Assembly (NCBI GenBank): GCA_903930515.1
Contig: CAIYYW010000198.1
Span: forward strand, 1 to 12,795
Origin: an uncultured delta proteobacterium
GTDB lineage: Bacteria; RBG-13-61-14; DRUE01
DNA length: 12,795 bases
Direction: 5' to 3'
This document shows positions 2,847 to 12,699 of this stretch, piece by piece. The notes under the pieces are model-generated. The model worked only from the letters and a program-made list of their open reading frames with translations. It was not told the origin of the DNA and searched no databases. Each line of letters opens with the position of its first letter. Within the stretch, counting starts at the first letter, position 1. Both the position numbers and the translations under genes were made by a program.

Positions 2847-4049
2847 TCAGGCCGCGGCTCCCTTTTTCACCGGCTTCTTGACCGTCAGGGAAATCAGCAA
2901 GGTAACGATCAGGAGCGCTCCGGAGATGTAGAAGGCATAATTGAAGGTGTGATATTTGTCATAGATCATTCCGGCGACCAGGGCCATGAGCGATCCCACT
3001 CCCCAGGAGGTGAAGATCACGCCGTAGTTGATCCCGAAATTTTTCAGGCCGTAGAAATCTTTGACGATGGAGGGGAACAGGGCGAGGTTGGAACCGTAGT
3101 TCATCCCGATGCAGACCGAGAAAACGATCAGCAGGATCGGATGGGCGATGAACGGGGTGAGGAACATCAAGACCGCCTGGAACAGGGTGAAAATCTGGAG
3201 CACCCGAATTCTGCCCATCTTGTCCGAGGCGGTTCCGGCAATGATCCTTCCGCCCGCGTTCCCGATCGCGAGCAGGGCGACCAGGATGAACCCGGCTTTG
3301 TATCCGGCCTGTACATCCACCACCTTGGCGAGTTTGCCGATCACCATCAGGCCGGCTCCGGCGTTGAACGCGAACATCAGCCAGAGCAGATACGAGACCG
3401 GGGTGGTAATAACTTCCATCCCGGTGAAGTCTCCGGCTCCGAGCGGCGCCTTGGTCCCGGATTTAGCGGCCGGGGCCGCGCTGGGCGGATTGACCAGCAT
3501 CTGGGAAAACAGGACCACCACGATCATAAAGGCGATGCCCAGAATCATCAAAGTATTTTGAATCCCGTTCTTGCCGATCAGGAAATTAACCAACGGAGCG
3601 ATATAAACCGAGGCCAGCCCGAACCCGGCGACCACCAAACCGGCGATCATTCCGGTCTTGGCGGGCGGGAACCATTTCACCGCCGGCGGGGTTGCGGAGG
3701 CATAACCGAAACCGATCCCTGCCCCGGCCAAAACTCCGAAGCCCAGGATATACATAGTCACATCCTGGAACCGGCTGGCCAGGATCAGGCCCAAACCAGT
3801 CAGGATGCCGCCCACGCTGGCGACCATTCTCGGCCCGAACCGGTCTTGCAATTTGCCGGCCGGGACCATCATCAGCGCGAAGATCAGGCAGGCAATGGTA
3901 TAAGGCAAAGCCCGCTGCGTCTCGGTCCATCCCCATTCTTTGGGAATACTCTTGGAAATCACGCTCCAGGAATAAAGCACGCCCAGCGCCAGGTTGATCC
4001 CGGTGCCGGAAAAGGTTACCACCCATCCTTTTTTGGAACCATCAGCCAT
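2847..4049 (-). CDS. OFA-family major facilitator transporter
   Basis: 400 residues from the ATG at 4049, with about 12 hydrophobic segments, an inner-membrane carrier. The opening GWVVTFSGTGINLALGVLYS is characteristic of the OFA (oxalate/formate antiporter) family. Motif A of the major facilitator superfamily is clear after helix 2 as GKLQDRFGPRM, and the half-way repeat is seen as GTASDKMGRIRV in the second half. A hydrophilic loop with proline, alanine and lysine (around VNPPSAAPAAKSGTKAP) separates the two six-helix bundles. Family members carry organic anions such as oxalate, formate or other carboxylates, and many are of unknown substrate. The start is set by AAGGAGG seven bases upstream. 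A longer open frame begins at 4109 but has no ribosome binding site. Neighbouring acyl-CoA genes suggest a carboxylate substrate, but the sequence does not identify it. Confidence 0.85.
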   Translation of the reverse strand: MADGSKKGWVVTFSGTGINLALGVLYSWSVISKSIPKEWGWTETQRALPYTIACLIFALMMVPAGKLQDRFGPRMVASVGGILTGLGLILASRFQDVTMYILGFGVLAGAGIGFGYASATPPAVKWFPPAKTGMIAGLVVAGFGLASVYIAPLVNFLIGKNGIQNTLMILGIAFMIVVVLFSQMLVNPPSAAPAAKSGTKAPLGAGDFTGMEVITTPVSYLLWLMFAFNAGAGLMVIGKLAKVVDVQAGYKAGFILVALLAIGNAGGRIIAGTASDKMGRIRVLQIFTLFQAVLMFLTPFIAHPILLIVFSVCIGMNYGSNLALFPSIVKDFYGLKNFGINYGVIFTSWGVGSLMALVAGMIYDKYHTFNYAFYISGALLIVTLLISLTVKKPVKKGAAA

Positions 4050-7489: not shown

Positions 7490-8701
7490 ATGAAGCAGAT
7501 ACTGGACGGGGTCAAGGTCCTGGATTTGTCGCAATTTTTGAGCGGGCCGAGGTGCACGGAGATGCTGGCGGATTTCGGAGCGGAGGTGGTTAAGCTGGAG
7601 CCGCCTTTGGGGGAAGGGATGCGCTGGCTGATGTCGCCGGTGCCGGGATTGGACCGGTCAATGTCAAATTGGCATCGGAGCAAGAAGGGGATCACCTTGG
7701 AAATCCGGAATCCCAAGGGCAGGGAATTGTTTTTAAAGCTGGTGAAACATTTTGATGTGTTGGTGGAAAACCTGGCTCCGGGCGCAATGGAAAAGGCCGG
7801 GCTGTCATACGCGGAATTGGCCAAGATTCATCCCCGGCTGATCTTTTGTTCCATCTCCGGGTTCGGACGCACCGGCCCGAATTCGGAGCGGGTGGCGTTT
7901 GACATTATCGCCCAGGCCACCAGCGGCATCCTCTGGTCGCTGGGGATTCCGGACCGGGTGCATTCGGTTTTCATCGGCGACCTGGTGAGCGGGGCGTATG
8001 CGGCGTACGCGGTCCTGCTGGCGATGCTGGACCGGATCCGGACCGGGCAGGGCCAGTTGATTGATGTCTCAATGCAGGATGTGCTCTATTTCCATAATTA
8101 CCGGGCGATGCAGCTCAGGAGCGTAGCCGAGGTGGAGGCGACCTTGCACGAGGCCGTGGGCGGGACCTTTGACGATTTCTTCTCCGGAGACAAGAAGAAG
8201 AGCGTTCCGTTCTGGAGCATCTACCAGGCGCAGGGCGGTAATATCGCGGTGGTGTTCCTGACTGACGCGCAATGGAAAAAGGTGTGCAAGATCATCGGCA
8301 AGCCGGAGCTGGCCGACGACCCCCGGTTCTCGAATGTAATTTTACGGACCAAGAACCGCGAGGACTACCGGCAATATATTATTGACTGGGTCAGCCGGCA
8401 TAAGCTGGATCAGGTTGAGAAGATTTTGGTCGAGAACCGGATTCCCTGCGGACGGGTGGCCAAGACCGAGGAGGTCAACCTGGACCCGCATCTAAAGGAG
8501 CGGGAAATGCTTTCCTGGTGCGAGGATCCGGTTTACGGGAAAGTGCCGACCCCGGGGATTCCGATCAAGATGAGCCAGACCCCGGGCGAGATCAAACGGA
8601 GCGCGCCCCGCCTGGGCGAGCATAACCTGGAGGTTTACGGAAAATATCTGGGCCTGACTGAAAAGGATTTGGCGGAGTTGAAGAAAGAGGGCGTGATCTA
8701 G
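7490..8701 (+). CDS. Family III CoA transferase (CaiB/BaiF)
   Basis: 403 residues, usual family length, cytoplasmic. The opening LDGVKVLDLSQFLSGPRCTEMLADFGAEVVKLEPP is the family signature. The CoA-binding region continues with R-S-K-K-G-I-T-L and a D-V-L-V-E-N-L-A-P-G-A-M-E-K stretch. The catalytic aspartate, which forms the acyl-enzyme anhydride, is D164 in FIGDLVSGAYAAYAVLLAML. The position that is histidine in alpha-methylacyl-CoA racemases is F137 (VAFDIIAQATSG), arguing for transferase rather than racemase chemistry. The glycine loop is AQGGN. These enzymes move CoA from one acyl-CoA to a free carboxylic acid, activating it without ATP. The acid pair cannot be told; oxalate/formate, carnitine, benzylsuccinate and bile acid types all share these features. 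The gene diverges from the dehydrogenase and stands alone. Its stop codon overlaps the tatC stop on the other strand. Confidence 0.9.
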   Translation: MKQILDGVKVLDLSQFLSGPRCTEMLADFGAEVVKLEPPLGEGMRWLMSPVPGLDRSMSNWHRSKKGITLEIRNPKGRELFLKLVKHFDVLVENLAPGAMEKAGLSYAELAKIHPRLIFCSISGFGRTGPNSERVAFDIIAQATSGILWSLGIPDRVHSVFIGDLVSGAYAAYAVLLAMLDRIRTGQGQLIDVSMQDVLYFHNYRAMQLRSVAEVEATLHEAVGGTFDDFFSGDKKKSVPFWSIYQAQGGNIAVVFLTDAQWKKVCKIIGKPELADDPRFSNVILRTKNREDYRQYIIDWVSRHKLDQVEKILVENRIPCGRVAKTEEVNLDPHLKEREMLSWCEDPVYGKVPTPGIPIKMSQTPGEIKRSAPRLGEHNLEVYGKYLGLTEKDLAELKKEGVI

Positions 8702-9483
8702 CCGGCCGGTTCCTGCTCGGAATCCCGGGGCTTGAAAATCCAGACCAGGATGGCGCTGATCTCATAGAGGAACCAGAGCGGGAAGGCCAGGAGCAACTGG
8801 CTGATCACATCCGGGCCGGGCGTGAGGGCCGCGGCCAGGACGAAGATGACGATCACGGCGTATTTTCGGTTGCGATGAAAAAATCCCGGGCCGATCAAAC
8901 CGATCCGGCCCAGGAACACCGCGACCAGCGGGAACTCAAACACCAGCCCGAAGGCGAGCAGGACCCGGGTGGCGAAGGAGAAATAATCGCTGAGCCGGGG
9001 ATTGAACTGGACATCGCTGAAGGTGAACTGGGCGAAATACCGGAATCCGAACGGAAAGATCACGAAATACCCGAACGCGGCCCCGCCTACGAACAGGAGG
9101 GTGGAAAAAAAGATGAACGGAAAAATAAATTTCTTCTCCTTCTTGTAGAGCGCGGGCGCGATGAATTTCCAGAGCTGGTAAAAAATCACCGGAGACGCGG
9201 CGAAGATCGCGGCCAGGAAGGAGAGTTTGAGGTCAAAGATGAACCCTTCCGCCGGGGAGGTGAACTGGAACGCACCTTTGCCGGCAATGGCCTTTTGCAT
9301 GGGCAATTTGAAATACTTGACCAGGGGCTTGTCAAATAAGCCGAAGATCACGCAAAATACCGCCACCACCGTCACCAGGGTGATCAGGATTCTCTTGCGC
9401 AACTCCTCCAGATGCTCGATGAAAGTCATCTCGCCTCCCAGAGCGTTCTTTTTAATTCTCTTCTTCTCTTCCTGGTCCGCCAT
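8698..9483 (-). CDS. tatC: Twin-arginine translocase subunit TatC
   Basis: 261 residues, inner-membrane protein with six membrane helices. TatC is the receptor that recognises the twin-arginine signal peptide of folded, often cofactor-bearing proteins. Hallmarks: HLEELRKR at 24-31 before helix 1, FIAPALYKKEKK with E116 after helix 2, E183 in VFEFPLVAVF, and TPGPDVISQ at 221-229 with D225 before the last helices. Two starts are possible. ATG at 9483 overlaps tatB by 32 bases and has a GAGG nine bases upstream. ATG at 9429 (MTFIEHLEELRKR) has a GGGAGG only four bases away and would remove 18 charged residues. I give the longer form, with little preference. It is the last gene of the five-gene operon, and its stop shares a CTAG with the converging CoA transferase; no terminator is visible between them. 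Confidence 0.93.
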   Translation of the reverse strand: MADQEEKKRIKKNALGGEMTFIEHLEELRKRILITLVTVVAVFCVIFGLFDKPLVKYFKLPMQKAIAGKGAFQFTSPAEGFIFDLKLSFLAAIFAASPVIFYQLWKFIAPALYKKEKKFIFPFIFFSTLLFVGGAAFGYFVIFPFGFRYFAQFTFSDVQFNPRLSDYFSFATRVLLAFGLVFEFPLVAVFLGRIGLIGPGFFHRNRKYAVIVIFVLAAALTPGPDVISQLLLAFPLWFLYEISAILVWIFKPRDSEQEPAG

Positions 9484-9856
9484 CCGGCTTTGCCTCTTCC
9501 GGAATCCCTTCCGCCGCCGCGGTTGGTTTTGTTTCCGGTGTCTCTTCCATCGCCTCTCCCGATTTTTCTTCCGGCTTTTCTTCCGGCCCCGCTTCCAGCC
9601 TCTTCAATTCCTCAATTTCCTTTTCCATCTGCCTTTGCACCAGCAGAGGAACATCGGAAATCTCCCGCAAGGATTCCCGGATATCATTCATCTCCGCGTC
9701 CGCGCCGATTTCCTTTTTTACCTCCTCCGCGGTTTTCTTGATCTCCGCCATCAATCTCCCCACAATCTTCAGCACCTCCGGCAATCGCTTAGGCCCCAGC
9801 ACAAGCAGCGCCACCAGGATGATGACTAAAAGTTCTGAGGATCCAATTCCAAACAT
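9452..9856 (-). CDS. tatB: Sec-independent translocase protein TatB
   Basis: 134 residues. One N-terminal membrane helix, MFGIGSSELLVIILVALLVLG, is followed by the hinge GPKRLPEVLKIVGRLMAEIKK and a charged amphipathic helix. The rest is an acidic, glutamate- and proline-rich tail (about 85-134), probably disordered. E8 in the helix and the L-G-P-x-R-L-P-E hinge favour TatB over TatA, which usually has F-G-x-K-K-L-P. At 134 residues it is longer than most TatA. TatB partners TatC in the receptor complex that binds twin-arginine signals. The ATG lies one base after the apbE stop, with AGAGG inside the end of apbE, so translation is coupled; the end overlaps tatC. No separate tatA is in the window, so either this protein also serves as TatA or tatA lies elsewhere. 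Confidence 0.88.
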   Translation of the reverse strand: MFGIGSSELLVIILVALLVLGPKRLPEVLKIVGRLMAEIKKTAEEVKKEIGADAEMNDIRESLREISDVPLLVQRQMEKEIEELKRLEAGPEEKPEEKSGEAMEETPETKPTAAAEGIPEEAKPDGGPGREEEN

Positions 9857-9857
9857 C

Positions 9858-10880
9858 TCAATCCTCTCGCGGGGCGGCCTGACCCCAAGTCATGTTTTCG
9901 TAAAACCATTCAGTGGCGCCGAAATCTCCGGAAGGCTCCAGGAATAGCGCCTCCAGGTCGGGCCGGGATTGAAGGAGCTTAAGCCCGGCTTCCCTGCCCA
10001 GCACGAACAAGGCGGTGGCCCAGGCGTCCGCGATCAGGCCGGTATCGGCTTTCACGCTCACGCTCGCTTCCCTTTGAACCGGGTATCCGGTCCGGGGGTC
10101 AATGATGTGGGAATATCGGACGCCGTTGAAGATATAGAACCGCTCGTAGTCTCCGCTGGTGGCGATGGCTCCCCGTTTGAGATAAACCTTGCCGATGATT
10201 TTTTCGCGGTAGCGCGGGTGCTGGATTCCGATGGCGATTCCCTTTCCCGTAACGCCGAAAACCGTCAGGTCCCCTCCGGCGTTCACCAGTCCGGATTTGA
10301 CTCCGTTTTCCTTCAAGACCCCGGCGGCCCGGTCCGCGGCATATCCCTTGGCGATCCCTCCCAAGTCAATGCCCATTCCGGGTTCGGGCAGGAAAACGGT
10401 CTGGTGGTCTTGATCCAAAACAATTTTCCCACACCCGACCAGTTTCAGTTTTTCCTTTACCTCCGCGTCTCCGGGCGGGCTGGGATTGGCGTCTCCGATT
10501 TTCCAGACCGATAGCATGGGCAGGATGGTGGGGTCAAAGGCTCCCTGACTTTCCCGGCAGACCTGGAGCGATTTTTCCAGCAGCATCATCATCTCGTCAT
10601 CAACCTTGACCGGGCTGATCCCGGCTTGGCGGTTGATCCGGCTCAGCATGGAATCAGGCCGGTATTTGCTCAGCTTGAAATCCAGCCGTTCTATTTCCCC
10701 GAACCCTTTTGATGCCGCCTGCTCCAGTTGTTTATCGTCCGCTCCCCGGGCGATGATCTCCACCTGGGTCCCCATCAAGAATTGGACCCGCTTGATTTCC
10801 CGGTCCGGTTGAGGGCAGGCGGAGAGCAATCCCGCCAGGGACAGGCTCAGCAAGAAGATGGGTATGCGGAAATATTTCAT
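9858..10880 (-). CDS. apbE: FAD:protein FMN transferase (ApbE), lipoprotein
   Basis: 340 residues. The signal peptide ends in a good lipobox L-S-A-C with C22 as the lipid attachment site, so the enzyme is held on the outer face of a membrane. ApbE moves FMN from FAD onto a threonine of exported target proteins such as RnfG, NqrC and FMN-binding-domain reductases. Motifs in order: R-V-Q-F-L-M-G-T near the start, GAFDPTI at 113-119, DLGGIAKGYAAD at 172-183, NAGGD at 200-204, ATSGDYERF at 240-248, HIIDPRTGYP at 258-267, and DAWATALFVLG at 285-295 with the Mg-binding D285. All key elements are intact, so it should be active. Its ATG overlaps the stop of the SUMF1-like gene (ATGA), and tatB starts one base after its stop. 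No flavinylation substrate is encoded in the window. Confidence 0.93.
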   Translation of the reverse strand: MKYFRIPIFLLSLSLAGLLSACPQPDREIKRVQFLMGTQVEIIARGADDKQLEQAASKGFGEIERLDFKLSKYRPDSMLSRINRQAGISPVKVDDEMMMLLEKSLQVCRESQGAFDPTILPMLSVWKIGDANPSPPGDAEVKEKLKLVGCGKIVLDQDHQTVFLPEPGMGIDLGGIAKGYAADRAAGVLKENGVKSGLVNAGGDLTVFGVTGKGIAIGIQHPRYREKIIGKVYLKRGAIATSGDYERFYIFNGVRYSHIIDPRTGYPVQREASVSVKADTGLIADAWATALFVLGREAGLKLLQSRPDLEALFLEPSGDFGATEWFYENMTWGQAAPRED

Positions 10881-11692
10881 CGGGCCGAACCGAGTTTCAC
10901 CTTCTCGGACGAGAGCGCGCAGCGGAAGCCGTTATATTCGCTTCGGTCATCCGGGGGCAGAGGGTTCCGGGCTGAGGACAGGAGCAGGAATATTGAATAG
11001 AAATAGGCGCCTCCCCGGGTCACTTTCATCTTGCCGGTTTGGTCAAAAGTTTTATCCGATCCCGGATACGATTTATACCAGTCGTCGGTCCATTCCCAGA
11101 CATTCCCGGCCAGGTCCATAATCCCATAGGGGCTGGCGCCTTTGGGAAAACTCCCGACCGGAACCGTATCCTCATACGGGCTGGTCCGGTTGTTGCTCAA
11201 ATGCTGGTCCCAGCCGTTCCCCCACGGATATGTCCGGCCGTCGGTTCCCCGCGCCGCCTTTTCCCATTCCGCCTCCGTGGGCAGCCTTTTCCCCACCCAT
11301 TTGCAATAGACCTCCGCGTCGTTCCAACTCATATTGACCACCGGATGGTTTTCCCTGCCCGCGGGAATCTGGCCCGCGCGCAATAAATACGGAAGCTGAT
11401 ACTCGGTTTGCCGGCAAAAATTTAAATACTGCCGGTTGGTCACTTCAAACTTGTCCAGGTAATAATCCGGCAGGTTTGCCTTGCGCCGTGGTTTTTCATT
11501 GTCGGCAATATAGTCAATGCTGGACCCTTTGTCCGAGCCCATCCAGAATTCCCCGGCCGGAACCAGGGTCATGATGGAGCCGTCCTTGATCCAGCGGGTC
11601 TCGCTCAGCCGCGTTTGTTGCTGGGAAAGCGCGGAAGCCGAACTCAACCCTAGGGTCAATAATACCATTGCTGAAATTCTTGCCCGGTTCAT
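10877..11692 (-). CDS. Exported SUMF1/FGE-like protein lacking the catalytic cysteines
   Basis: 271 residues with a Sec signal peptide (1 to about 22, ending SASA-LS). The remainder is a formylglycine-generating-enzyme (sulfatase-modifying factor) domain: LVPAGEFWMGS near 43-53, Y-Y-L-D-K-F-E-V-T-N-R-Q-Y, PVVNMSWNDAEVYCKWVGKRLPTEAEWEKAARG around 117-149, TYPWGNGWD, YGIMDLAGNVWEWTDDW at 189-205, RGGAYF, and GFRCAL at 255-260. True FGEs carry two cysteines in the R-C-A-A-R region shortly before the G-F-R-C-A end (C336 and C341 in human SUMF1). Here that stretch reads SIFLLLSSARNP, so the positions (roughly 234 and 239) are not cysteine. It is therefore unlikely to make formylglycine. Such FGE-like folds also occur as binding or structural modules. 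ATGA overlaps join it to both the TPR gene and apbE. Confidence 0.85.
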   Translation of the reverse strand: MNRARISAMVLLTLGLSSASALSQQQTRLSETRWIKDGSIMTLVPAGEFWMGSDKGSSIDYIADNEKPRRKANLPDYYLDKFEVTNRQYLNFCRQTEYQLPYLLRAGQIPAGRENHPVVNMSWNDAEVYCKWVGKRLPTEAEWEKAARGTDGRTYPWGNGWDQHLSNNRTSPYEDTVPVGSFPKGASPYGIMDLAGNVWEWTDDWYKSYPGSDKTFDQTGKMKVTRGGAYFYSIFLLLSSARNPLPPDDRSEYNGFRCALSSEKVKLGSAR

Positions 11693-12699
11693 TTCTGGAT
11701 CTTTTTCTTAAGCTCTTCCGGATGATAGCCCAGTTGCAGGCTCCGGTTATATTCTTCCCGCGCCTTTTGCCGGTCGCCCAGGCGCGCGTAGCAAAGCCCG
11801 AGATAGTAATGGCCGGTGCCGCTGTCGGGCTTGAGTTCAAGATATCTCTGAAGGTGCTTAAGCGCGAGCTGGTTCTGGTTGAGGGAAAGGAAAAGCTGGC
11901 CCAGGTTATAATGAGCCTCGGGCTGGAGCGGGTCGGTCGCCAGCGCCTCCTGATATTCTTCAATCGCCCGCTCAACATTATTCCCGATCAAATAGATATT
12001 GCCCAAATCCAGGTGAGCGTCCACGAATCCCGGACTCAGCGCGGTCTCAATCAAAAACGCCGCCTTCGCGTCCTCCATCCGGTTCGCCGCCAGGAGCGCG
12101 ACCCCCAGGTGGAAATAAAAATGGTAGGTTCCGGGATCCTCCGTGCGCAGGATCGCCTCGCGGTAGAGCTTGACCGCTTCTTCCGGCTGGTGGATCTCCA
12201 GATAGCATCCGGCCAAATTGTTATAGGAGATGAAATAATCCGGGTTGAGGGCAATGGCTTTTTTGTATTCAACGATCGCTTCTTGAGCCCGCTCCTGGCG
12301 CTGGTAAAGGGTGCCCAGCTTGTGATGCAACTGGGGATCGTCGGGCTTCAGCTCCAGGGCCTTTTTATAATACGCCTCGGCCTGGTCCCAGTTGCCCTCC
12401 CCTTTCCATTCGCAGCATACCCCGGCGACATAAAGGTAATCCGGATTCTTCGGCTCCAACTCAATCGCCTTGCCCAGCGCCGAAATCCCCTCGTCATTTT
12501 TTTTCATCTGGCAGAGCGTAAGCCCCTTCCCGTACCAGGCCGTCGCCAGCGCCGGATTTTCCTTGAGTGCCGCCTCATAATAACCGAGCGCCATCGGCCA
12601 GTTCCGCAGCTTCATAAACTCCTCTCCCATCCGCGCCATATTCTCCCCCGCGGCCTGGATCAGGAGCAGGCTGAAAATTACCAGCAGCAGCTTCTTCAT
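11689..12699 (-). CDS. Exported TPR-repeat protein
   Basis: 336 residues from the ATG at 12699. Residues 1-18 (MKKLLLVIFSLLLIQAAG) form a Sec signal peptide. The rest is filled by about nine tetratricopeptide repeats from residue 24 to near the end. Clear units include ALGYYEAALKENP, AEAYYKKALELKP, AIVEYKKAIALNPDY, AIEEYQEALATDP and ALKHLQRYLELKPDS. TPR proteins are scaffolds for protein-protein contacts; nothing here points to a specific partner. The ATG at 12699 is chosen because it opens directly on the signal peptide. A TTG at 12735 would add 12 residues and lies inside the candidate -35 box. No good Shine-Dalgarno precedes the ATG, and the promoter would give almost no leader. It is the first gene of the operon, and its TGA overlaps the next ATG. 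Confidence 0.85.
   Translation of the reverse strand: MKKLLLVIFSLLLIQAAGENMARMGEEFMKLRNWPMALGYYEAALKENPALATAWYGKGLTLCQMKKNDEGISALGKAIELEPKNPDYLYVAGVCCEWKGEGNWDQAEAYYKKALELKPDDPQLHHKLGTLYQRQERAQEAIVEYKKAIALNPDYFISYNNLAGCYLEIHQPEEAVKLYREAILRTEDPGTYHFYFHLGVALLAANRMEDAKAAFLIETALSPGFVDAHLDLGNIYLIGNNVERAIEEYQEALATDPLQPEAHYNLGQLFLSLNQNQLALKHLQRYLELKPDSGTGHYYLGLCYARLGDRQKAREEYNRSLQLGYHPEELKKKIQK

Follow-up and report, generated by a model that had tools for sequence, protein, structure and literature searches.

What joins a TPR protein, an FGE-like protein, ApbE, TatB and TatC in a single run of closely packed genes? A preliminary description of this locus read the run as a tight five-gene unit dedicated to the maturation of one flavin-bearing envelope protein. 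The window analysed here is all of contig C198 (12,795 bases) of the source genome, designated G000, which consists of 401 contigs and is 93% complete. It has been compared with two relatives, the congener G001 and G002, which belongs to the same order but to a different family; searches at the class level and at the phylum level gave the same three genomes. The features of the locus are as follows.

11689..12699, minus strand: tpr, coding for a TPR protein of 336 aa (Pfam TPR_2, E 6e-49).
11689..11692, minus strand: junction of tpr and fge-like, a 4-base ATGA overlap, the same in G001.
10877..11692, minus strand: fge-like, coding for an FGE-like protein of 271 aa (FGE-sulfatase, PF03781, E 3e-56).
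10877..10880, minus strand: junction of fge-like and apbE, a 4-base ATGA overlap, kept in G000, G001 and G002.
9858..10880, minus strand: apbE, coding for an FAD:protein FMN transferase of 340 aa (PF02424, E 3e-87).
9857, minus strand: junction of apbE and tatB, a one-base gap (ORF coordinates).
9452..9856, minus strand: tatB, 134 aa (TIGR01410, 73.1 bits, cut-off 56.5).
9452-9483, minus strand: junction of tatB and tatC, a 32-base overlap (ORF coordinates).
8698..9483, minus strand: tatC, 261 aa (TIGR00945, 206.6 bits, cut-off 132.7).

The two ATGA overlaps, the one-base gap and the 32-base overlap are all present as originally described, and TatB and TatC are genuine, both equivalog models being matched above their cut-offs. 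Judging from the overlaps, the five genes are likely read as one transcript. About 100 bases of contig sequence lie 5′ of tpr, which is the first operon gene as far as the contig shows; its start at ATG 12699 is a choice, and its frame is open to the contig end. A promoter scan gives a weak promoter-like match directly 5′ of tpr, while a terminator scan finds terminators no more numerous than in shuffles. At the other end, the stop codons of tatC and of a convergent caiB-like (CoA-transferase) gene meet tail to tail within the palindromic CTAG at 8698-8701, leaving no room for a terminator between the two genes. The stops are interlocked in G000, whereas the tatC and caiB genes of G001 are ~100 bases apart.

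The operon is real and is conserved in the genus. G001 has the same gene order and the same junctions to the base (overlaps of 4 and 4, a gap of 1, and an overlap of 32), with tatC starting at 3537 inside tatB, whose stop is at 3568. The tatC gene of G001 is split by a contig end, with 28 codons on C110 and the remainder on C795, where it is followed by the same convergent caiB gene. Protein identity between G000 and G001 is 61-74% across the operon genes (70% for the TPR protein, which occupies the same place in the operon). For all five genes, dN (0.17-0.29) is lower than dS (0.94-2.05, near saturation). The identity of the junctions at this level of protein divergence, together with dN below dS, indicates that the arrangement has been selected or inherited and is not due to chance.

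In G002, the genes for the FGE-like protein and ApbE adjoin with the same ATGA overlap (L016, 7547-7550), at 44-54% protein identity and in different surroundings. The contig is 193 kb long and the pair lies near 125-127 kb, so this is not a contig-edge artefact. The tatB and tatC genes of G002, which overlap by 14 bases, are by themselves on C96, and C75 carries the best TPR match behind a glycogen synthase-like gene, so that tatBC, the best TPR match and apbE are on three contigs. Separate occurrence of the parts in relatives had been named in the preliminary description as evidence against a unit; tatBC, apbE and the best TPR match are indeed apart in G002, but the FGE-like gene is still coupled to apbE. 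This ATGA overlap is the sole junction common to all three phylum genomes compared. Since only the FGE-like–apbE pair has been kept together in G002, the pair is taken to be the older core; the unit of five genes is known from one genus only. Outside the phylum, pairwise tblastn found no FGE-like–ApbE or ApbE–Tat adjacency in a sample that comprised the best loci for ApbE (27) and for FGE (about 27), taken with 1.5-kb flanks, and 79 FGE loci whose flanks extended up to 7 kb. A literature search for ApbE together with formylglycine-generating protein found no published FGE-like–ApbE pairing, and the word “sulfatase” is absent from the text of the eLife 2021 survey.

The FGE-like protein has a signal-like N-terminus (signal peptides and twin-arginine signals were judged by eye throughout) and contains the FGE core motifs GNVWEW, RGG and GFRC. 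Its structural model (pTM 0.80) matches the fold of human FGE with a Z of about 24 and an rmsd of 3.5 over about 220 residues, and that of PorK with a Z of about 22. In an alignment with human FGE, the first catalytic cysteine (human C336) is replaced by Tyr232, which is invariant in the three genomes, while the second (human C341) corresponds either to a three-residue deletion or to Ile234; the human numbering is taken from PDB mutant titles. One regular expression applied to the 79 FGE loci finds a cysteine at the first catalytic position in 59 of the 79 segments, and a genome scan with the FGE-like protein mostly matches other FGE subfamilies. As both cysteines are missing, the protein does not qualify as an FGE enzyme, and the earlier impression that it is non-enzymatic is borne out in this respect. 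It is probably an inactive look-alike of the sulfatase-activating enzymes, and a role as a true sulfatase maturase has been rejected on the same grounds. A weak or unusual enzymatic activity may still be compatible with the loss of the FGE cysteines, by analogy with PvdO, which has the FGE fold and is annotated as a dehydrogenase.

The FGE-like protein shares the fold and the core motifs with the FGE/SUMF1 family (PF03781) but differs from it in the loss of both cysteines and in having an N-terminal signal, and the operon contains no sulfatase gene. PorK/GldK of type IX secretion are likewise signal-bearing, with an FGE fold and no catalytic cysteines, and the Cys-less FGE fold of PorK has a non-catalytic docking role as a protein-binding hub (PMC12421860). 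Membership of the GldK/PorK family itself has been rejected, with 83.2 bits for the GldK/PorK model against a cut-off of 350. Unlike PorK/GldK, the FGE-like protein has no T9SS context that could be seen and is much shorter (271 versus about 490 aa), which leaves no room for the large insertions of PorK. Among the FGE-like proteins of other phyla, those at L106 and L107 (G007 and G155) have cysteine-rich N-terminal motifs of a CxxCH-like type (CRTTCHQAE, CKACH) that are possibly haem-binding. The FGE match at L051, on a contig titled as a Bifidobacterium breve MAG, resembles those on cyanobacterial contigs in identity and extent; this contig is possibly mislabelled or contaminated.

ApbE is aligned to PF02424 over the full length of the model (1-266 of 266). 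The operon protein retains the Asp-Ser-His triad that has been defined in FmnB and in V. cholerae ApbE (PMC12052999); its S242, H258 and D285 align with S257, H273 and D301 of FmnB (7esa). The lipobox-like N-terminus, LLSAC, suggests that ApbE is an exported lipoprotein. With its full ApbE domain, its triad, this N-terminus and FMN_bind clients in the genome, the protein resembles the ApbE/FmnB flavin transferases, but its gene is set apart from theirs by its translational coupling to a Cys-less FGE-like gene.

Two FMN_bind proteins with SGAS have been found in G000, both on contigs other than C198. The first is an RnfG-like secreted protein on C317, and the other, encoded on C45 next to a priA-like gene, is a NosR/NapH-like membrane protein that has 4Fe-4S motifs. 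Both have relatives in G001, and G002 keeps the NosR/NapH-like kind, again beside a priA-like gene. The published flavinylation motif is D-x-x-[ST]-G-A-[ST]. In the genus, the motif reads [RK]x[IV]SGAS (L014, L015, L162, L164), in which Arg or Lys replaces Asp and Ser is the acceptor; in G002 it is DAVSGAT. According to a review, replacement of the motif Asp had minor effects only. No twin-arginine signal is visible in the FMN_bind proteins.

The TPR protein has a signal-like hydrophobic stretch at its N-terminus and reached no specific family model at cut-off. The overlap of tatB with tatC, and a TatA encoded elsewhere in the genome (G000:C223), are in line with other TatBC operons; on the other hand, the apbE, FGE-like and TPR genes upstream in G000 set this unit apart from them and from the solitary tatBC of G002. 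The exported operon members have no visible twin-arginine signal either. A search of G000 for TAT_signal gives 20 matches at E<=5, the highest-ranking of which have RRxF motifs. Of the Tat-signal proteins examined, most are Cys-type sulfatases, glycosidase-like proteins and phosphoesterase-like proteins. At least five contain the CxPSR sulfatase motif (L208 on C228, L209 on C110, L210 on C107, L211 on C10 and L217 on C289); four of these five are confirmed as sulfatases by Pfam, and the remaining one is in a broken gene. At L208:5316-6937, the sulfatase frame is in two pieces, with CSPSR in one of them, as a result of a frameshift, a pseudogene or an assembly error. A radical-SAM protein near a Tat client has a weak match to the maturase model TIGR03942 (37.5 bits versus 349).

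These client sets bear directly on the original reading of the locus. A genome search detected one copy of ApbE and one of TatC in each of the three genomes, so that each is general-purpose and must serve every client, although, given its completeness and number of contigs, G000 could have a second apbE or tatC that escaped detection. Since the FMN_bind proteins are without a visible Tat signal and the Tat-signal proteins are of other kinds, ApbE and TatBC serve different client sets, as far as can be told from sequence. The operon has the appearance of shared housekeeping and not of a one-client machine. A unit in which Tat exports one envelope flavoprotein, ApbE flavinylates it, and the FGE-like and TPR proteins act as its chaperones would agree with the co-operonic arrangement conserved in the genus. 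However, the operon contains no client gene, the FMN_bind proteins are unlinked to it, ApbE and TatC are the only copies detected, and the five genes are dispersed in G002. A Tat-delivered flavoprotein has therefore been rejected as the client, and a dedicated unit of this kind is highly improbable.

The FGE-like protein could instead serve the Tat clients, as a periplasmic binder of exported Cys-type sulfatases. SUMF2, a human FGE paralogue, interacts with sulfatases, and its structure (1y4j) is among both the sequence and the fold matches of the FGE-like protein. The CxPSR motif of the Tat-signal proteins is the one that FGE folds bind in true FGEs. Against this comparison, the substrate-reacting cysteine is gone from the FGE-like protein, and in G002 its gene stays with apbE and away from tatBC; we regard the sulfatase-binding role as quite unlikely. 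Gene-order inertia is a more serious alternative, in which five envelope genes share a transcript without working together and the FGE-like and apbE genes adjoin by descent only. The separation of tatBC, TPR and apbE in G002, the general-purpose character of the single ApbE and TatC, and the results of the outside-phylum tblastn sampling are all consistent with it. Inertia accounts less readily for junctions that agree base for base within the genus, where the proteins are 61-74% identical, or for an ATGA overlap that survives into another family at 44-54% identity when its surroundings have changed. This explanation is possible but doubtful.

The explanation that we tentatively favour, and consider quite possible though short of probable, is a composite, genus-level envelope-maturation operon with the FGE-like protein and ApbE at its core and a non-catalytic docking role for the FGE-like protein. 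The FGE-like–ApbE pair would be the older part. ApbE, as an exported lipoprotein, would transfer FMN from FAD to the FMN_bind proteins, which would be encoded elsewhere in the genome and would not depend on Tat to cross the membrane. The FGE-like protein, secreted and dead as an FGE, would most likely dock ApbE or the clients of ApbE, in the way that the FGE fold of PorK acts. In this genus, a periplasmic TPR scaffold would have been added upstream of the pair and the only tatBC downstream of it, the latter exporting its separate set of sulfatases, glycosidases and phosphoesterases. We infer secretion from signals judged by eye, and the interaction of the FGE-like protein with ApbE and their joint function are likewise inferred. 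The favoured explanation is weakened in that two families from a single phylum can give a functional linkage only slight support, and the pair could itself be a case of gene-order inertia.

A narrower proposal is that ApbE has a dedicated partner in the Cys-less, secreted FGE-like protein, which might, for instance, present the [RK]x[IV]SGAS clients as a specificity or docking subunit. We consider this rather unlikely, but if it were true, protein flavinylation would have an accessory subunit in the FGE-like protein, and the use of the FGE fold as a docking hub would have one more instance. The locus also carries a warning that one conserved operon need not be one pathway, since the clients of TatBC and those of ApbE appear to differ at this locus. 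In existing descriptions, ApbE acts unaided, with a short sequence motif as its target. If it had a non-catalytic FGE-like partner that was conserved and translationally coupled to it, this would point to an accessory factor for flavinylation in some lineages.
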